Part shown: piece after piece, positions 12,964-21,834 of the stretch
How positions within the stretch are numbered: position 1 is the stretch's first letter
Layout of the letters: each line of letters starts with the position of its first letter
Origin: Fibrobacter sp. UWB2
GTDB taxonomy: Bacteria; Fibrobacterota; Fibrobacteria; Fibrobacterales; Fibrobacteraceae
Length of the DNA: 64,000 nucleotides
Assembly: GCF_002210425.1 (NCBI RefSeq)
Contig: NZ_MWQK01000002.1
Location: 496,001 to 560,000 of the forward strand
Direction of reading: 5' to 3'
Made by a program: the position numbers and the translations under genes
Notes under the pieces: model-generated
What the model saw: the letters and a program-made list of their open reading frames with translations, nothing else
What the model was told of the DNA's origin: nothing
Database searches by the model: none

Positions 12964-13093
12964 GCTTTTTTGATACGTAGAACTGTGGGTATGGGGGGCG
13001 TTTTTATTTTATTTTGGCAGATTTTTGTCACATCTTTATAATGATATTATTTATATTTTCGTAGTAATATTGTAAAGGTGTGTGCTGAAGTGT
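12964..13093. promoter_or_regulatory. AT-rich leader of the PLP/NRPS operon
   Basis: The 130 bases between ftsK and the biosynthetic operon are very AT-rich, with TATAAT near 13036-13041 and TATATT near 13051-13056 as candidate -10 elements. No clear terminator for ftsK is seen, only a T-rich stretch after GGGGGGCG. Confidence 0.35.
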
Positions 13094-14236
13094 ATGTGTT
13101 TTTATCGGAGCAGTTTTATTGATCAGCTTTCAACTCCATGCTACATCGTTAGCACGGATGTGCTTTGCGAAAATTTTCAGAACATACGTGCAAAAGCTGA
13201 CCGCGTCGGTCTTTCTCTTTTGCTAGCCATGAAAGGCTTCCCTCTTGCAAAGGCTTTCCCTTTTATCAAGTCGTATGTTGATGGAATTTCTGCGTCTGGG
13301 CTTTTTGAAGCAAAGTTGGGTTCAAAGCTCGGAAAAGAAGTGCATGTCCATACGCCGGCATACAAAAAAGAAGATGCGGAAGAAATTGCGGCCTATTGCT
13401 CTCACATTGTCTTAAACGCCCCCCATCAGCTAGAGGTCTTTAGTCACGTCGCTACTAGCAAAAATGAGTTCGCCCTCCGCTTGAATCCTGAGGTTTCTGT
13501 AGTAAACGAATCGGTTTACAATCCATGCGCCCCGTATTCACGTTTTGGCCTTACAAAGGGAATGCTTTCGGCTGTAGATAGCCGTTTTTTTGAAAAGATT
13601 TCCGGCTTCCACGTTCATGCTTTGTGCGGTTCATCTTCAAAAGATTGTAACAACTTGATTTCCGCCGTTCTGGAAAACTTTTCTGACTACCTTCCTTCTG
13701 TATCCTGGATAAATCTTGGAGGAGGACAGGCTCTTCTCGAAGACGATTTTGATTTTGCTGACTTCGCCGAAAATCTGGACATTCTGCATTTAAAGTATCA
13801 CTTAAAAACCTACATTGAACCCTGCGAGTATTTGGTGATGGATGCGGGCTTTCTTCTGACCACTGTTTTGGACGTGGTGCATAATGGAAAGGACATCGCC
13901 ATTTTAGACACTTCTATTTCGTGCCATGCCTTGGATGTCCTTAAAAATTACTATCAGCTGCCCGTAATTTATCCACAGGCCGGGGAAAAGGGCTATTCCT
14001 ATCTGCTTGCAGGAAACAGCTGTCTTTCTGGCGATGTATTTGGCGAGTACTCTTTTTCTGCCCCCTTAAAGCCGGGTGACAAAATCGTCTTTGGTGACAT
14101 GGGTTCTTATTCCTTTGCACAGATGAATTATTTCAACGGCATCAATTATCCTGATATCTGTTTTTACAGCGAAAAAAACGGATTCCAGCAGATAAAATCC
14201 TTCGACTACATGAACTACGAGGCTCTCTATGACTGA
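13094..14236 (+). CDS. fold-III PLP decarboxylase, carboxynorspermidine decarboxylase-like
   Basis: An alanine-racemase-fold PLP enzyme. The PLP lysine sits in LLAMKGFPLAKAF (about residue 47). The NspC-type block LRLNPEVS...YNPCAPYSRFG, the GFHVHALCG segment, the glycine motif INLGGGQ and the C-terminal Cys/Asp region GNSCLSGDVFGEY all match carboxy(nor)spermidine decarboxylases more closely than diaminopimelate decarboxylase. The usual HTLCE ends in Gly instead of Glu here, and EPGE reads EPCE, so the substrate may differ. The start is uncertain: ATG 13094 is used, but GGAG at 13107-13110 is ideally placed for an ATT at 13118. First gene of the NRPS operon, overlapping the next gene by eight bases. 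Likely provides an amine for the pathway (inference). Confidence 0.8.
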   Translation: MCFYRSSFIDQLSTPCYIVSTDVLCENFQNIRAKADRVGLSLLLAMKGFPLAKAFPFIKSYVDGISASGLFEAKLGSKLGKEVHVHTPAYKKEDAEEIAAYCSHIVLNAPHQLEVFSHVATSKNEFALRLNPEVSVVNESVYNPCAPYSRFGLTKGMLSAVDSRFFEKISGFHVHALCGSSSKDCNNLISAVLENFSDYLPSVSWINLGGGQALLEDDFDFADFAENLDILHLKYHLKTYIEPCEYLVMDAGFLLTTVLDVVHNGKDIAILDTSISCHALDVLKNYYQLPVIYPQAGEKGYSYLLAGNSCLSGDVFGEYSFSAPLKPGDKIVFGDMGSYSFAQMNYFNGINYPDICFYSEKNGFQQIKSFDYMNYEALYD

Positions 14237-15356
14237 TTATGAAATTGAAATGGAATTGGAAGCTGCTTTAGAAGCATTACCAAAAGAAAATCCGCCGGTA
14301 AATCTTTCCGACTGGAATTCTGGTTCTGACTATAAGGAAAAGCTTGCATCAGTTGTAAAGCTTGGTAAAAAGTCTGACTTGTTTGATTATCAGTATTTCT
14401 TTCCTGACTGCATAAAAAAAGACCTTGCCCATAAATTGGGATTTTCTGATGAAGCTTACGAAAATTCTTTTTTTGCGCCTGTATCTCAAAGCACCCTTTC
14501 TATCGTAACGCTCGCTATATTCTTAAAAAAGCATAATCAAAAGGTGGGGATTGTAGAGCCGGTTTATTTTTCTGTACAAAGTTGCGTTGATGACATTGGC
14601 ATACCTTATCGCCTTTTTAGCGATTACATGGAAAACATAAACAGTACTTTTGATGTAGAAGAACTCCTACAGTCTGACTGTACTGCATTTTGGTTTACGT
14701 CTCCGGTCAACTCTTGCAGCATTTATTTTAAGGAGCGCGTTACAAAAGGAATTCAAAAACTCCTGGATGCAGGTAAAATAGTCATCTTAGATGAATCCCT
14801 ATGCGTAAACGGATATGAACTTTCAAGAGTTTTTGGAGTTCAGGAAAATCTCCTTTACATTTATAGCCCTCATAAGGCTTTGGGACTCCAAGGAATAAAA
14901 TTCTCTTACGTTGTGTGTCATACAAAATACTATGATGACATCAACAACCTTGAAGATATCTACGGAGGCTCTTTGTGCTATTCCTGCCAGGAAGGAGCAA
15001 GACATTTTGTTTCAAAGAATTTCGACGACTGCCGGGATGTTTACACAGCCTTTTGGCAGGATAACTTTCTGAAGGTGAAAAACATTGTAAAAAACTATGA
15101 TTTTGCCCGAATCTCGCCGGAAACCTTTGGCCACTATGCCATGATTTTTATCCGTTGCGCTGTAGATGACGCATCCTTTGTAGAGGCGATGAAACGCCTG
15201 ATGAAGGAAAAAGGCTATTTTGTCTATCCCGGCATTTTGCAGGGCTTTGCTCCCCCAAAAGGTTTTTGTTTTCGGATAAATATGCTTTTAAACACTAATG
15301 ATATTGAAAATGGGCTAAGGGTAGTCCTTGATTACATTAAAGACACCGGGAAATAA
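14229..15356 (+). CDS. fold-I PLP-dependent enzyme (aminotransferase class I/II-like)
   Basis: A 375-residue PLP enzyme of the aspartate aminotransferase fold. The cofactor Asp is in KIVILDESLCVNGYEL and the Schiff-base Lys in IYSPHKALGLQGIKFSY (about residue 217). A C-terminal FCFRINMLL may hold the carboxylate-binding Arg. It is divergent from housekeeping aminotransferases and I cannot name a substrate. It could be an aminotransferase, a lyase or a decarboxylase. It overlaps the upstream decarboxylase gene by eight bases and is followed 16 bases later by the NRPS start, so it clearly belongs to the same pathway. Lys codons are mostly AAA, unlike neighbouring housekeeping genes. Confidence 0.72.
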   Translation: MTDYEIEMELEAALEALPKENPPVNLSDWNSGSDYKEKLASVVKLGKKSDLFDYQYFFPDCIKKDLAHKLGFSDEAYENSFFAPVSQSTLSIVTLAIFLKKHNQKVGIVEPVYFSVQSCVDDIGIPYRLFSDYMENINSTFDVEELLQSDCTAFWFTSPVNSCSIYFKERVTKGIQKLLDAGKIVILDESLCVNGYELSRVFGVQENLLYIYSPHKALGLQGIKFSYVVCHTKYYDDINNLEDIYGGSLCYSCQEGARHFVSKNFDDCRDVYTAFWQDNFLKVKNIVKNYDFARISPETFGHYAMIFIRCAVDDASFVEAMKRLMKEKGYFVYPGILQGFAPPKGFCFRINMLLNTNDIENGLRVVLDYIKDTGK

Positions 15357-15372
15357 AGAGGCGTTTACAAGT

Positions 15373-17724
15373 ATGATTGATTTTTTGCAGAAATTTTTAG
15401 ATACAGTTGCCACATATCCTGAACGTGCAGCTTTTGTAGATAAAGACGGCGAACGCAGCACTTCTTATAAAAAACTGGACGAACTTTCTGGCCGTGTAGC
15501 TGCATTTCTGAAAAATAAAGGCTTTCAGAAAGAAGACCTGATTGCCATAAATCTTGAAAAATCCATGGAATATACAGCGGTGCAGTTAGGAGTAATAAAG
15601 GCTGGAATCGCCTTTGTGCCGCTTTCTGAAAGCATGGGGCAGGAAAGATTTAGTCATGTGCTGAAAGATTCAGGGGCAAAACTTGTTTTTGATGCGGCCG
15701 CCTGGGATCAAGCTATGGAATATGAGCCTCTGAATCCTGAGAAATGGGCGGACTCTGACGAACATGACCTTGCCTTCGTCATCTATACATCCGGAAGCAC
15801 AGGAAAACCAAAAGGGGTTGTAGAAGAATATGGTGCCTACCGTTTTACGACAAAGGGTACAGCCGAGGAAGTTGTAGAACCCTATACCATGAAGGACGAT
15901 GCCATCCGCTTTGCAAATGTAGCTCCGGTAACTTTTTCAGCCTTTACCATTATCAATGTGAGCATGCTCTATAATGCCGGTACTATTTATATAGTCTCCG
16001 ATGCTGTCGTCAAGAATCCTATGCTTTACATGCAGTTTTTAAAAGACCACAGGATTGACGCAATGTTTCTGACGGCCTCGATGATAAAGCCTCTTTCTGA
16101 AAACAGAAGCCTTTCCCCCAAGGCGATTATGCTTTCATCCGAACGGGTAAGCGATGTGTACAGCACGAAGTTCGCTGTTTTGAACCTCTACTGCAATACG
16201 GAACTGATGTCTACAGCCTGCAACTTTGTGATTGACAAGCCTTACTCAAACACTCCCATCGGCAGGAACTGTTCCTATACGGACATGATTCTGCTCGATG
16301 ACGGTAAAGTTTCGGAAAAAGAAGGTGAAATCTGCCTCTGTCTGCCTTATTTCAGGGGCTACCTGAACCAGCAGGAAGAGACAGAGAAGGCTTTTGTCTC
16401 GATTGGCGGGAAAAAGTTCTTCTGCACGAGGGACGTTGCCCGCCGCGGAGAAGACGGACTTCTGTATGTGCTGGGTCGGGCAGACGATATGGTAAAGATT
16501 AACGGAAACCGGGTGGAACCAGCCGAAGTAGAGACAGTACTGAAAAAAGTTCTGGAAACAAAAATGGTTGCTGTAAAAGCCTTTGAAAAAAAAGGAAAAT
16601 ATTATCTCTGCGCCTATTATCAGAAAGAATACTCTATTCCTGTGGAAACCATCCGCGCCTCGCTAAAGCCCTTGCTCCCCGCCTATATGATCCCCTCATT
16701 TTTTGTGCAGATGAAAAAGATTCCCCTGAATATAAACGGAAAAATCGACAGGAAAAATCTACTCATCCCGAATTTTGTTTCTCAAAATACATATGTTGCA
16801 CCTCGGACAGAATGTGAAAAAATACTCTGCGATGCATTCAAGGAAGCCCTTGAAGACTATGAGGAAATTGAAAAAATCGGCATTGACGATGACTTCTTTT
16901 TAATGGGAGGCGACAGCGTAAGTGCCATGGAGCTTATGCTTGCTTGTGAGGAGTTTAAGTTGACCGTGCCGCTTATTTATGAAAAACGTACTGTCCGTGC
17001 TCTTGCCGAAGTGCTAGATAAGAAGATGTCTTTAAGTTCCCCAGCCACAGCAAAAGAGACTCCAGAAGAAAAACTCCCCCTTATCCTTTCTCAAAAGGAG
17101 GTGCTTGATTATGAAGCTTGTCTCCCAGACACCATCGTAGACAATGTTCCCTTGTATTTGACTTTACGTTCGGATCTTGACGAAAAAAAACTCTATCAAG
17201 CTCTGAAAAAAGTGATTGAGGCGCACCCGGCCTTACGCACCGTGATTGAAAAGGACAGGGAACAAGGCTATGTGCAGTATCAAAAACAGAATATTGACGA
17301 AGCAATAAGCGTAGAGGCTATGTCAGAAAAAGAACTTGACGCTATCGTCGAAAACTTTGGAGAAATCTTCGCTCTTGATGGAAGCCCACTTTTCAGATGC
17401 CGCATCATCAGAACAGAAAAACGGCTTGTTCTTCTTTTAGAAGTTCATCACGCTATTGCAGACGGACTTTCCCTGCATATTTTCGCTTCCGATATAGAAA
17501 AGGCTTATCGAGGCGAAGTTCTTACAAAAGACTGCTACAATGAGTTTATAAAAGAAATCTTCGCAGCCGAAAAAGATACATCCCTGCTTTCATTGACTGC
17601 AAACCAAAATTCCACACTCACTTTATCAAATGGCAAAATCTGTTATTGTGCGCCAAAGCATGATTTTGAAAAAGAAGATAAGGTCGCTTGTCAAGTAATA
17701 GCAATCCCTTGTTCAAAAAAATAA
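15373..17724 (+). CDS. nonribosomal peptide synthetase, A-T-C module, upstream part (condensation domain interrupted)
   Basis: Activates an acid as its adenylate and loads it on a carrier domain. Adenylation motifs are A3 YTSGSTGKPKG (about residue 138), A5 NLYCNTELMST, A7 LGRADDMVKINGNRVEPAE (near 368) and A10 NINGKIDRK. The thiolation site is MGGDS (phosphopantetheine Ser near 515). A condensation domain follows with the active motif HHAIADG (near 692). That domain stops half way at a TAA right after seven adenines; the missing half is encoded in the -1 frame just downstream. In A4 the usual Asp that binds a substrate alpha-amino group is not evident (PVTFSAF), so a non-alpha-amino acid is possible. 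Start ATG 15373 is chosen because AGAGG lies upstream, rather than an earlier in-frame ATG inside the preceding gene. Confidence 0.85.
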   Translation: MIDFLQKFLDTVATYPERAAFVDKDGERSTSYKKLDELSGRVAAFLKNKGFQKEDLIAINLEKSMEYTAVQLGVIKAGIAFVPLSESMGQERFSHVLKDSGAKLVFDAAAWDQAMEYEPLNPEKWADSDEHDLAFVIYTSGSTGKPKGVVEEYGAYRFTTKGTAEEVVEPYTMKDDAIRFANVAPVTFSAFTIINVSMLYNAGTIYIVSDAVVKNPMLYMQFLKDHRIDAMFLTASMIKPLSENRSLSPKAIMLSSERVSDVYSTKFAVLNLYCNTELMSTACNFVIDKPYSNTPIGRNCSYTDMILLDDGKVSEKEGEICLCLPYFRGYLNQQEETEKAFVSIGGKKFFCTRDVARRGEDGLLYVLGRADDMVKINGNRVEPAEVETVLKKVLETKMVAVKAFEKKGKYYLCAYYQKEYSIPVETIRASLKPLLPAYMIPSFFVQMKKIPLNINGKIDRKNLLIPNFVSQNTYVAPRTECEKILCDAFKEALEDYEEIEKIGIDDDFFLMGGDSVSAMELMLACEEFKLTVPLIYEKRTVRALAEVLDKKMSLSSPATAKETPEEKLPLILSQKEVLDYEACLPDTIVDNVPLYLTLRSDLDEKKLYQALKKVIEAHPALRTVIEKDREQGYVQYQKQNIDEAISVEAMSEKELDAIVENFGEIFALDGSPLFRCRIIRTEKRLVLLLEVHHAIADGLSLHIFASDIEKAYRGEVLTKDCYNEFIKEIFAAEKDTSLLSLTANQNSTLTLSNGKICYCAPKHDFEKEDKVACQVIAIPCSKK

Positions 17725-18320
17725 GAGATTTTTGTTTCTCGCATTCCGTCAGCCAGAACGATTTTTATCTCTTTGCCGCGGCTCTTTCCCTGGCCCTTTA
17801 CAATGACTGTGAACAAGTTGCTTTTGACTGGATTTGGAATGGTAGAGATTCTGCAAAATATGCAGATACCATTGGTTATTTCTTGAAGGAAATTTTTATT
17901 GCGCTGGAACTTCCTCAAAGTACCCCCGTTCTTGACGCTCTTATAACTTGCAAAAATAAAATTTTACAATCCCTTTCCAGTGCAAATGACATGTCCCAAA
18001 AGAGGGTTCAGCCAGATGAAAATAAAATCTGCTTTATTTTTCAGGGTGAAATGTACGTTCCGAACACCCACGGCTTTGTCACTTCTGCCAAATGGATTGA
18101 AAATTCGGATAGGGCTGCAGAAAGCATCATGGACATCGAGGTTAAGGTAGATGATGAAAAAACCGAAGTTTCTTTTGAATACGACGGCGGAAAATACAAG
18201 AGAGAAAGTATCGCGACTTTTTCGAAAGTATTTGTCTTTTGCTGCCAAATGATTTTACAAATAGAAGAAAATGCCGGGCTTACGATTGGGGAAGTAAAAA
18301 AACAATGGCAAAAAAGATAA
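17688..18320 (+). CDS. second half of the NRPS condensation domain (-1 frame continuation)
   Basis: About 200 residues that complete the condensation domain begun upstream: DFYLFAAALSLALY, then VAFDWIWNGRDSAKY and IGYFLKEIFIALEL match the C5-C6 part of NRPS condensation domains. There is no ATG near its beginning, only a TTG at 17688 without a ribosome site, and the homology starts at the A7 run (17715-17721). The simplest reading is that it is made as a fusion with the upstream frame by -1 slippage, or that the gene is frameshifted. A separately translated half domain is less likely. Confidence 0.7.
   Translation: MSSNSNPLFKKIRDFCFSHSVSQNDFYLFAAALSLALYNDCEQVAFDWIWNGRDSAKYADTIGYFLKEIFIALELPQSTPVLDALITCKNKILQSLSSANDMSQKRVQPDENKICFIFQGEMYVPNTHGFVTSAKWIENSDRAAESIMDIEVKVDDEKTEVSFEYDGGKYKRESIATFSKVFVFCCQMILQIEENAGLTIGEVKKQWQKR
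17715..17724 (+). other. A7 slippery run followed by stop codon inside the NRPS condensation domain
   Basis: Zero-frame codons read TCA AAA AAA TAA. Moving back one base within the seven adenines gives AAA AAA ATA AGA and continues in frame through the rest of the condensation domain. This fits the A_AAA_AAA type of slippery heptamer, but also transcriptional slippage, a real one-base mutation or a sequencing error. Confidence 0.6.
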
Positions 18321-18344
18321 CTTTTAAGAATGCAAGGAGTCTAT

Positions 18345-18644
18345 ATGGAAATTAAGTCTAATTTGAATGGTGAAGAATTGACGGTGGAACTTTCGGGGGA
18401 GCTGAATGCAATGACGGCTCCACTGCTTTCGACATTCCTCGCTCCGCATCTTGAAAAGATAAAATCCCTTGTTTTTGACTTTAAGGAATGTGATTTTGTT
18501 TCGTCGGCAGGGATCCGCGTGCTGCTCTCTTCGTTTAAGACGCTGAAAAAGAACCAGGGCGACATGCGACTTGAAAATGTGGGTCCCAACTTTAAGGAAG
18601 TTCTCGAAGCGACGGGGCTGGATGTAGCGTTCGGTATATTGTAG
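18345..18644 (+). CDS. STAS-domain anti-sigma-factor antagonist-like protein
   Basis: A 99-residue single STAS domain of the RsbV/SpoIIAA type. It shows the edge strand ELTVELSGELNAMTAP and the switch helix start FVSSAGIRVLLSS, whose Ser is the usual phosphorylation site. AAGGAG at 18332-18337 fixes the ATG at 18345. In known systems such proteins bind an anti-sigma kinase when unphosphorylated and are reset by a PP2C phosphatase. Here the next gene is a transporter with an RsbW-like tail and the gene after it is a PP2C phosphatase, so the three can form one partner-switching circuit (inference). Confidence 0.88.
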   Translation: MEIKSNLNGEELTVELSGELNAMTAPLLSTFLAPHLEKIKSLVFDFKECDFVSSAGIRVLLSSFKTLKKNQGDMRLENVGPNFKEVLEATGLDVAFGIL

Positions 18645-18652
18645 TAGGTAAA

Positions 18653-20377
18653 ATGTTCAAGACATTTCTTTCAAGAAAGTTCTTTTCACTATTGCTGTCG
18701 AGCTCAATTAGCCTACTCGTCATTACGGTATTGGCGCTATCGGATACATTGATTGCGGGTGTCATGTTGGGCGAAGAAGCCGTTTCGGCCATTTGTCTAG
18801 TTGTCCCGGCTTATTCCTTGGCTGGCTTTGCTGGGTGCCTGATTTCATTGGGTGTTCCTATTATTTACAGTCGGGCTATGGGCGAATTCAATAAGGAAAG
18901 GGCGGATCGTTGTTTTGCGTTTGGACTCTTTATGGCTGTGGTGATGGGATTAATCCTGTATACCGTTTTTATGCTGTTTGGGGATGCCTATCTTCGTTTC
19001 TATGAGCCTTCTACAAGCGTTTTCAATGCGGCAAAGGATTATTTCTTTTGGTATAAGTACACAATCTTGTTGTTGCCTATTATGACGTTAATGGACGAAA
19101 TGGTCCTTACCGACGGCGATGAAACTTTATCGATGGTTTCAGGGATTGTACAGATTGTTGGAAATATCGTCTGCTCGATTGTTTTTGCAAAATTTGTAGG
19201 TATTGAGGGGATTGGGTTTGGATCGTTTATTGGAACTTTGGTTGCGTTACTTGTTGCTTTTGCGCATCTTCTTCGTAAAGGCAATTCTTTGAAATTGGGT
19301 TTTTATTTTTCGTTAAAATGGCTTGTCGATGTCGTGAAGTATAGCGCAATAGATGCGGGAACATATCTTTTCTTGGCTTGTTTCACCGCCGTAATGAACC
19401 GTTTTATCACCTTCGCTTATGGTCCCGAAATGCTTGTGCTTGGAGCCATCATCCTTTTTGTTAAAGAGGTACAAATTGTGTTTGATGGCATAGGGGAGGC
19501 GTTTACTCCGCTGATGAACATTTACCTAGGCGAAGAATCTTATGACGGTGTAAAAAAAATCTATGGCCTTTCTAGAAAAACAGCTGTTGTCGAAGGAGTG
19601 GTTTTGACCCTGCTGATGATATTGGTTGCGCCTTTTATTGTCAAACTTTATGACATTTCCGACTCTGTTGCCTATTCTTATGCAGTCGGGGGACTTCGAA
19701 TTGAAGCCTTGGGGTTAGTTTTCTTGAGTTTATTGTATCTGTTGAGTTCCTACTATTTGCTCATAGACAAAATTAAGCTTGGATTTGTCATGAGTGCGCT
19801 CCGGGATGTTCTCGTCGTGACTCCGGCGTGTATAGCTCTTGGATATTTCTTTGGCATATATGGAATGTTTGCCGGTGTTGCCGTAGGCCCTGCCATTGCC
19901 TATGCGATTTCGGTTCTGTACATCCGCTTCCGGTATGGAAAAGATAATTACCCTTTATTGCTTTCGGAAAAGTTAAAGGGTTTTAAACATAAATTTTATG
20001 AGTTTAAACTAAATCCGGAGTCGATTGTTGGGACTCAGCATCAAGTAGAAAAATTCCTTGTAGAAAATAATATTGAACAGAAAACCATTTCGAAAGCGAA
20101 GTTGCTTATAGAAGACCTTTATATGCTCATTTATGAAAAAAATGGCGTGGATAAAGCCGTTTATGCGGAATGTACTGTCATTATTCGAGAAACGGACGTG
20201 CAGATTATTACTAAGGATGATGGTGTTCTGTTTGATTTGTCCAATGAAGATGTCGTAGCTGGATCGATTGTTGAATTTATGGTTTCTGGCTACATGGAAA
20301 AATTAAAGGATAACAAAAAATACTTGACAACCATGAGTTATAACCGGAATACGTTCAGGATTAACTACGAGGGGTAA
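18653..20377 (+). CDS. MATE-family transporter fused to a degenerate RsbW/HATPase-like C-terminal domain
   Basis: About the first 440 residues form a 12-helix MATE (NorM/DinF-type) exporter, starting with a helix containing LLVITVLALSDTLIAGVML. A cytoplasmic tail of ~130 residues follows. It resembles RsbW-type histidine-kinase-like ATPases: a helix IEDLYMLIYEKNG where the N-box lies, two strands, then a G1-like KDDGVLFDLSNED. The N-box Asn needed for Mg-ATP is not seen, so the tail may bind the STAS protein without acting as a kinase. It starts eight bases after the STAS gene and ends two bases before the phosphatase gene. Probable role: export of the pathway product, gated by partner switching (inference). 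Confidence 0.82.
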   Translation: MFKTFLSRKFFSLLLSSSISLLVITVLALSDTLIAGVMLGEEAVSAICLVVPAYSLAGFAGCLISLGVPIIYSRAMGEFNKERADRCFAFGLFMAVVMGLILYTVFMLFGDAYLRFYEPSTSVFNAAKDYFFWYKYTILLLPIMTLMDEMVLTDGDETLSMVSGIVQIVGNIVCSIVFAKFVGIEGIGFGSFIGTLVALLVAFAHLLRKGNSLKLGFYFSLKWLVDVVKYSAIDAGTYLFLACFTAVMNRFITFAYGPEMLVLGAIILFVKEVQIVFDGIGEAFTPLMNIYLGEESYDGVKKIYGLSRKTAVVEGVVLTLLMILVAPFIVKLYDISDSVAYSYAVGGLRIEALGLVFLSLLYLLSSYYLLIDKIKLGFVMSALRDVLVVTPACIALGYFFGIYGMFAGVAVGPAIAYAISVLYIRFRYGKDNYPLLLSEKLKGFKHKFYEFKLNPESIVGTQHQVEKFLVENNIEQKTISKAKLLIEDLYMLIYEKNGVDKAVYAECTVIIRETDVQIITKDDGVLFDLSNEDVVAGSIVEFMVSGYMEKLKDNKKYLTTMSYNRNTFRINYEG

Positions 20378-20379
20378 AT

Positions 20380-21834
20380 ATGATTGCTGACAATATAACC
20401 GAGACACTTTTTGTCGAAATATCGCTCTTTTCAGTACTGTTGCTTGTTTTTATGCTGTACAATAACGTTGTACTGTATAAGATAAGCATGAAGGATAAGC
20501 TGTCACTTACCCTTATTTCGGCTATTATAGTTTCTGTATTCGATGGAATATGGCATTTTGTAGAGGGCGCTGGACGTCCGGTTTTAGAATATACTTGCGC
20601 CTACGTTTATGCAATCGGTCTCGTATTTGGAACATCGGTGTTCGCTTGGTTCACTCTAGATCGTTTTGAAATTGTTTTAAAATCGAAGAAGTTGTATGGT
20701 CTTTTATTTGTTGCCCCTATTGTTTTGACGACCCTTTTATGTCTTTCTACACCATGGACGAATTTGGTGTATTCCTATGATGAACATGGCATCGAGTATA
20801 TGCCATTGTTTGATTATTTTGTAGCGCCCATTTCCTTTCTTTATATGGGTGTCTCGATTTTTCTAGCGATTTATTATTTGGTTTTGCACCGTAAAAAGAG
20901 AAGTGAAAATATCTCTTATGCCAGAAATTTGTTGATATTTGCTGTGTTGACAGTCAGCGTAATAGCTGTGCAGACTTATGTCCTTGAAATTGATGAAAAC
21001 TACGTGGTGATAAGCTTTGCTTGGGCGGTAGGCTTTGTCTTTTTTACGACATACGTGAATACGGAAAGGTTTGTTAAAAGTCGCGAAAGAATTGCTGCGG
21101 TGGAGTCGGATTTACAGCTGGCCGCAAATATCCAGTCGGGGGCGCTCCCTACGGTGGTGCATGCGTTTTCGAAACACCCCGAACTCGATGTTTTTGCATC
21201 AATGACCACGGCAAAAGAAGTGGGTGGTGATTTCTACGATTTCTTTGAAATAGACGGTACGCATATTTGCTTTGTCATTGCCGATGTGTCGGGAAAAGGT
21301 GTGCCGGCGGCACTCTTCATGATGGTTGTGAAAACGATGATTCGTGACCATGCATCCATGAAACTTTCTACGGCAGAGATATTCAATGATGTGAATCGAC
21401 TTTTATGTGAGAACAATGCTGAAGAAATGTTTGCTACGGCTTGGATAGGAATTTTGGATACTAAAACAAAGGTCATGAAATGTACCAATGCGGGGCATAA
21501 TGCCGTATGCTTTGCCAAAAAAGACGGCTCGTTCGAGTTCCTGCGGCAACGCCATGGGGTGTTCCTCGCCGGGTTTGACACTACGCAGTATAAAGAATCT
21601 GAAATTCAGTTTGAAAGCGGAGATTGCCTTTTCCTTTATACCGATGGTCTTACTGAAGCTCACAATGCTTCCGCAGAACTTTATGGTGAAGAACGACTTT
21701 TGAAAAAATTAAATTCCATCAAAATTCGTGGCGGTGAAAAATTCTTGAGGGAAATCTCGGATGACGTGAATGTATTCTCTGAAGGAACAGATCCCTTTGA
21801 TGACCTTACAATGATGGTCCTCAAGGTGGACTAA
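20380..21834 (+). CDS. 7-TM SpoIIE/PP2C-type serine phosphatase (RsbU-like)
   Basis: Seven predicted membrane helices fill the first ~230 residues, a sensor-like arrangement. A short coiled linker (ERIAAVESDLQLAANIQSGALP) leads into a PPM/SpoIIE phosphatase domain. Metal-binding Asp residues are present in KEVGGDFYDFF, FVIADVSGKGVPAALF, LYTDGLTEAHN and DPFDDLTMMV. Such enzymes dephosphorylate STAS proteins, and the adjacent STAS gene is the obvious substrate. It is the last gene of the operon; ispE begins 25 bases downstream, with no terminator seen between them, so read-through is possible. Confidence 0.92.
   Translation: MIADNITETLFVEISLFSVLLLVFMLYNNVVLYKISMKDKLSLTLISAIIVSVFDGIWHFVEGAGRPVLEYTCAYVYAIGLVFGTSVFAWFTLDRFEIVLKSKKLYGLLFVAPIVLTTLLCLSTPWTNLVYSYDEHGIEYMPLFDYFVAPISFLYMGVSIFLAIYYLVLHRKKRSENISYARNLLIFAVLTVSVIAVQTYVLEIDENYVVISFAWAVGFVFFTTYVNTERFVKSRERIAAVESDLQLAANIQSGALPTVVHAFSKHPELDVFASMTTAKEVGGDFYDFFEIDGTHICFVIADVSGKGVPAALFMMVVKTMIRDHASMKLSTAEIFNDVNRLLCENNAEEMFATAWIGILDTKTKVMKCTNAGHNAVCFAKKDGSFEFLRQRHGVFLAGFDTTQYKESEIQFESGDCLFLYTDGLTEAHNASAELYGEERLLKKLNSIKIRGGEKFLREISDDVNVFSEGTDPFDDLTMMVLKVD

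Follow-up and report, generated by a model that had tools for sequence, protein, structure and literature searches.

A single open reading frame in the window (the whole 64,000-nucleotide stretch of Fibrobacter sp. UWB2 DNA analyzed here) joins a MATE transporter, residues 1 to about 430, to a C-terminal tail of 130 residues that is, by profile comparison and predicted structure, a diverged HATPase_c_2 domain of the RsbW/SpoIIAB type. The frame (18653-20377, + strand, 574 aa) lies between genes for a STAS protein and a membrane-bound PP2C/SpoIIE phosphatase. We lean toward reading this set as a partner-switching module with an exporter as its output, in which the C-terminal domain of the MATE protein would act as a pseudo-kinase that holds the STAS protein. 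The fusion appears to be new and would be classed as a variant of partner switching; its tail is unannotated in both Pfam and NCBIfam.

The operon and its transporter

The tightly packed genes of the operon occupy the + strand from 13082 to 21834, in the order PLP decarboxylase, aminotransferase-like enzyme, NRPS, STAS, MATE with tail and 7TM-PP2C/SpoIIE:

13082..14236, +, PLP decarboxylase related to carboxynorspermidine decarboxylase (nspC-like; TIGR01047 332 bits, below the nspC cut-off of 409)
14229..15356, +, PLP-dependent aminotransferase-like enzyme (Pfam Aminotran_1_2 9e-8)
15328..17724, +, NRPS A-T-C protein (adenylation, carrier, condensation), frame broken near its end
17688..18320, +, second part of the NRPS condensation domain, in another frame (Pfam Condensation 2e-8)
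18330..18644, +, STAS-domain protein of the anti-anti-sigma type, 104 aa (Pfam STAS 5.6e-16; NCBIfam TIGR00377 over its cut-off)
18504-18506, +, candidate phospho-serine S59 of the STAS protein, motif VSSAG
18653..19942, +, MATE transporter domain, residues 1-430 (Pfam MatE E=8e-16, two stretches)
18743-18745, +, conserved TM1 aspartate D31, invariant in 10 of 10 aligned rows
20380..21834, +, membrane-bound PP2C/SpoIIE phosphatase, 484 aa (Pfam SpoIIE 6.6e-47, HisKA_7TM 5.7e-7)
about 20425-21054, +, HisKA_7TM-type sensor of the phosphatase
about 21256-21828, +, SpoIIE domain of the phosphatase

The name GntC for the aminotransferase was dropped, its best NCBIfam match reaching 47.6 bits against a cut-off of 415. 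The operon is flanked by an ftsK-like gene on one side and an ispE-like gene on the other, whose proteins served as markers. Its G+C content is 37-45% per kilobase, against 49-56% in most kilobases of the flanks (45.5% in one), a depression that would fit acquisition from outside; the same operon is present in Spirochaetia MAGs, with transporter identities of 56-57%. A contig filed as Treponema (L035) carries a Fibrobacter-type operon with 83% transporter identity, an additional STAS gene and an nspC gene that is split, which could be either a recent transfer or a binning error. A PADLOC search of five operon proteins for defense systems returned no match. The break in the NRPS maps to an A run at about 17715-17721, with seven A residues versus eight in the relatives L031, L032 and L039, where the NRPS is a single 982-aa frame. 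Real inactivation, slippage and sequencing error cannot be told apart here, and since the frame is broken, the window strain or its assembly may not make the product.

In the PDB, the full-length model matches MATE transporters best (top 6fhz, E=1.3e-13, TM by target 0.85), and by its domain repeats and predicted fold we place the protein in the MATE family, with a putative export activity. The STAS gene ends 8 bases upstream of the transporter gene and the phosphatase gene starts 2 bases past it. Five matches each to STAS and SpoIIE in the 3.5-Mb genome of the window strain put chance adjacency, by simple arithmetic from five places in 3.5 Mb, at about 2% per gene for either family. A serine aligns with S59 in all 30 distinct STAS sequences, and the phosphatase has the Asp-containing motifs GGDFYD, ADVSGKG, TDGLTEA and DDLTMM; Asp residues in these PP2C motifs have a metal-ligand role. 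Hence, the arrangement proposed in the original prediction—a MATE transporter with an extra C-terminal domain, a STAS gene before it whose product has a phosphorylatable serine, and a PP2C gene after it—is borne out, and the span given there for the tail, 19980-20377, is accurate to within a few bases, 19980 lying out of frame.

Ancestry of the tail and its lost motifs

The tail and its recognizable elements are as follows:

19985..20362, +, C-terminal degenerate HATPase_c_2 (RsbW/SpoIIAB-like) tail, residues about 445-570 (from profile-profile comparison, model and relatives' matches)
20078..20143, +, N-box helix, residues 476-497 (aligned with kinases; helix also in the model)
20213..20236, +, G1 box KDDGVLFD, residues 521-528, kept (aligned with kinases)
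20339..20356, +, conserved C-terminal motif YNRNTF, residues 563-568

Taken alone, the window tail has no match in Pfam, NCBIfam or PDB sequences. PDB profile searches returned the GHKL ATPase HtpG, at E=0.17 and 0.51, and DOA1 at 0.67 and worse in a second search, all too weak for use. We compared a tail profile built from 18 relatives with a kinase profile of 31 HATPase_c_2-type rows, which omits L002, L075 and L080 and holds one HATPase_c protein (L081) and the duplicate pairs L073/L050rsbw and L061/L048kin. The profile-profile score is 55.4 (P=6e-9), whereas none of 99 column shuffles exceeded 24.1 and the profile in reverse scored 13.3; when 57 neighborhood ORFs of 100-220 aa were used as decoys, the top three scores were the three RsbW kinases. 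HATPase_c_2 is matched by 20 of 64 tails at E<=0.05, the next Pfam family by 4 of 64, and the C-terminus of the MATE protein of L050 reaches 5.4e-11.

An AlphaFold2 model of the tail from nine sequences (mean pLDDT 59.5, good to about residue 85, with residues 94-139 of 139 below 50) gives the order strand, helix, helix, strand, strand, strand, helix. Anti-sigma factors (SpoIIAB, RsbW, UsfX and alike), all with structures solved in complexes, take the first 16 places among its Foldseek matches, none of which falls below E=0.001, and VIA-align superposes 87 residues on 1tid at Z 9.3, unrelated rows reaching about 7.3 at best. The model thus points to an RsbW/SpoIIAB-type fold for its residues 1-95, with low confidence C-terminally. 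We assign the tail to a diverged HATPase_c_2 ancestry because the profile-profile score, the HATPase_c_2 matches of its relatives and this modest model, which matches SpoIIAB, RsbW and UsfX, all indicate it. This agrees with the ancestry that had been proposed from the letters alone and with the outcome expected from folding the tail by itself; the suggested search with HATPase_c_2 succeeded for relatives and failed for the window tail. The fold class is also the one point in favor of a tail that is still an anti-sigma domain, keeping a sigma factor at the membrane. We regard this as highly improbable, as no sigma-factor family was matched among the operon proteins and the subset of neighbors scanned.

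Three alignments were used: A1 (9 of 10 rows; L035 left out, its tail ending at the contig end), A2 (18 of 21 MATE proteins, without L035, L049 and L050) and A5 (64 of 65 rows, one L171 copy with an empty reference left out). Asn and Arg of the YNRNTF motif are invariant in A2 and at least 90% conserved in A5. In the N-box, the acidic residue D488 is kept and the position of the metal-binding asparagine is taken by L492 (20126-20128), as had been predicted. Just 2 of 64 tails (those of L050 and L176) have the N-box Asn, versus 35 of 35 distinct kinases, and the GxG of G2 is present in none of the 64 tails versus all 35 kinases, the glycine-rich G2 box being absent from the window tail too; these counts omit L177_2, which had been grouped with the kinases and is a fragment of a MATE-tail protein. 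Clustering at 50% leaves the picture at 2 of 20 tails for Asn and 0 of 20 for GxG, versus 13 of 13 kinases for each. The acidic N-box residue is kept in 64/64 tails, the G1 Gly in 63/64 and the G1 Asp in 57/64, and the motifs E, N, E, DDG, T and NR remain conserved even between tails of about 25% identity. In GHKL proteins, the N-box Asn is the Mg ligand and the G2 loop grips the phosphates. By its sequence the tail therefore falls outside the active anti-sigma kinases such as RsbW, lacking both the N-box Asn and the G2 glycine motif, and activity as a kinase is unlikely.

Distribution, gene neighborhoods and dedicated kinases

A search of 167 Fibrobacterota genomes with the tail profile gave 50 matches, spread over 39 genomes. 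Open frames of 570-613 aa that are transporter fusions account for 49 of the matches; the exception, in G106, is a broken remnant. There, beside an ftsK-like gene, a 106-aa ORF (G106:C17 about 256933-257121; L168:7419-7739) has an aminotransferase match at one end and a tail match at the other, and is, judging from this composite sequence, what an internal deletion has left of the operon. In the Spirochaetota, 9 of 392 sampled genomes match the tail profile, some through kinases instead of transporters, and the Selenomonas ruminantium plasmid pSRC2 (Bacillota) codes for one MATE-tail protein. Within the window genome only one of the MATE genes bears the tail. The matches delineate a recurrent fusion family rather than a single case; the view that the fusion is unusual holds for the libraries and papers searched, where open-licence PMC articles yielded no description of a MATE-RsbW fusion.

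We collected 68 distinct MATE-tail genes in 72 loci, several ending at contig ends, after dropping three identical proteins; all loci were fetched via the transporter or the tail, never via the partner genes. Within 6 kb of these genes there is a STAS gene in 31 cases, a PP2C/SpoIIE gene in 36, a HATPase kinase in 10, any of the three in 41 and an NRPS gene in 40, counts that are inflated by relatedness; in clusters at 50% identity, STAS or PP2C is nearby in 11 of 20. The STAS gene precedes the transporter in the window, L048, L155 and L163, follows it in L156, L158 and L162, and lies 4.2 kb upstream in L040-L043. Such variation of gene order between lineages favors a functional connection over the inheritance of a single fixed operon. 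Single proteins combining MATE, tail and STAS were not seen in the ORFs of the examined loci. A mirror-tree test over 28 loci gave a tail-STAS partial correlation of -0.02 given transporter distance (1203 of 2000 permutations as high); specific co-evolution of the two beyond transporter ancestry is thus not seen.

At the other end of the range, for 21 of the 68 genes none of the four kinds of partner (STAS, PP2C, kinase, NRPS) lies within 6 kb, so that the tail must there use partners elsewhere or work differently; in the orphan or partner-poor loci L154, L130, L163, L161, L175 and L166, the scanned neighbors share no relationship. One way of working differently would be a nucleotide sensor, the tail binding an adenine nucleotide without hydrolysis to couple energy state to transport, with no need of STAS. 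The genes without nearby partners would suit it, as would the retention of the G1 Gly and Asp in most tails, the Asp being the adenine contact of GHKL proteins. We consider it unlikely, given that the Mg-binding Asn and the G2 lid are lost and that the linkage to STAS and PP2C would go unexplained. The orphan cases could equally be called on for a tail that is a structural or dimerization relic of gene fusion with no regulatory role, and RsbW/SpoIIAB domains do dimerize. Such a relic would hardly keep its motifs down to so low an identity, or recur with its partner genes in different orders, and we give it a rather small chance.

Several contexts stand out individually. Two Spirochaetia MAGs have tandem MATE-tail gene pairs (L175:1452-4861 and L171) with no STAS or PP2C gene nearby, the pair in L175 adjoining a CDP-alcohol phosphatidyltransferase gene. 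On the Selenomonas plasmid (L130:13646-16623), the gene that the MATE-tail gene follows is of the glutamate-cysteine-ligase family and not an NRPS gene, a context that suggests another peptide-like cargo. A 751-aa protein is encoded after the MATE-tail gene in L159:5499-7754 and L164:8377-10632, the L159 copy having no Pfam match. In L048, a GGDEF protein gene (13455-14627) lies directly upstream of the PP2C-HATPase, STAS and MATE-tail set.

The dedicated kinases bear most directly on the role of the tail. The last gene of the operon in L037 and L038 codes for an intact, separate RsbW (HATPase_c_2 1e-18 in L037), in L163 and L165 an RsbW gene comes first, followed by STAS and MATE-tail, and in L048, L155 and L162 the phosphatase itself bears an intact HATPase_c_2 domain, adjoining STAS and the degenerate MATE tail. 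With L050 and L177, these make up nine loci whose dedicated kinase can be read; eight of them, all but L050, pair an intact kinase with a transporter tail that has lost the Asn. PP2C-HATPase_c_2 fusions also occur in the Fibrobacter loci L053, L060, L062, L076 and L079, away from MATE-tail genes as far as seen. A dead tail beside a live kinase, with a shared substrate, is the pattern expected of a docking or output domain, and it lends indirect support to the tail as a docking site for the STAS protein.

Among the proteins scanned from the window operon there is no kinase. Elsewhere in the same genome (G000), a single HATPase_c_2 protein that is short and stands alone exceeds the cut-off; its gene, G000:C4:9550-9915, adjoins its own STAS gene, the two forming a STAS/RsbW pair (G000:C4:9209-9915). 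This second pair could be the target if the flow were reversed, that is, if the transporter were the sensor and the tail sequestered or released the STAS protein according to transport, leaving it to act elsewhere, for instance on an RsbW kinase. The same gene set would serve such a scheme. It would, however, turn the operon's own membrane PP2C, with its 7TM sensor, into a second input, and the operon proteins scanned include no sigma factor or other output, making it improbable.

A proposed switch on export and its known relatives

In the partner-switching reading that we favor, the tail would have lost the ability to phosphorylate the STAS protein and kept that of binding it, in the way that RsbW binds RsbV. 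A separate RsbW kinase—encoded in the operon in some relatives, and elsewhere in the window genome, e.g. by G000:C4:9550-9915—would phosphorylate the STAS serine and free the protein. The 7TM-PP2C, on its signal, would dephosphorylate STAS at S59; the dephosphorylated STAS protein would then dock on the tail and change export, until the kinase, in cis or in trans, resets the switch. The likely cargo is the small product made by the neighboring one-module NRPS. As for the sign of the STAS effect, our guess is that an autoinhibition is released, export being on when STAS is dephosphorylated. Counting against this reading are the negative mirror-tree test, the 21 genes without nearby partners, the lack of a kinase gene in the window operon, the low confidence of the tail model, the Asn retained in the L050 and L176 tails and the broken NRPS frame. 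We are evenly divided on the broader proposition that partner switching has moved onto exporters in at least three phyla, with STAS Ser-phosphorylation gating the export of NRPS products directly, without transcription.

If true, the list of known partner-switching outputs would gain a transporter, and there would be an explanation for the 130-residue domain, unannotated so far, of a MATE family whose genes accompany those of one-module NRPSs in Fibrobacter and in Spirochaetia of the rumen. It would also give reason to expect a signal-triggered release of such NRPS products.

Partner switching is known mainly for freeing sigma factors. The proposed module shares with the RsbW/SpoIIAB, RsbV/SpoIIAA and RsbU/SpoIIE systems the HATPase_c_2 fold, a STAS protein with a phosphorylatable Ser and a PP2C/SpoIIE phosphatase; it differs in that the domain is fused to a transporter and catalytically degraded, and no sigma factor is seen in the operon. 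SLC26/SulP transporters carry a fused STAS domain and are thus likewise secondary transporters with a C-terminal partner-switching domain; there it is the STAS half that is fused, whereas here it would be the STAS-binding half. PP2C-HATPase fusions such as Rv1364c (PDB 3ke6) also join HATPase_c_2 to another module, in their case the phosphatase, and fusions of that type adjoin MATE-tail genes in L048, L155 and L162. For partner switching with another output, a precedent is SiaABC of the SiaABCD system of Pseudomonas aeruginosa, which acts through the diguanylate cyclase SiaD; it comprises the PP2C SiaA, the kinase SiaB and the anti-sigma-antagonist-like SiaC, and its output is cell aggregation, not a transporter (PMC7647112). 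The SiaB structure is among the weaker structural matches of our tail model. For control of a transporter by a STAS protein, the precedent is MlaFEDB, in which MlaB docks on the transporter's cytoplasmic part, on MlaF; the accessible text places the docking site on the ABC ATPase itself and describes no kinase, PP2C or pseudo-kinase domain (PMC7367683). Thr52 of MlaB, at the position equivalent to the STAS Ser, lies at this interface, and the phospho-mimic T52E was measured to weaken binding (PMC7367683).
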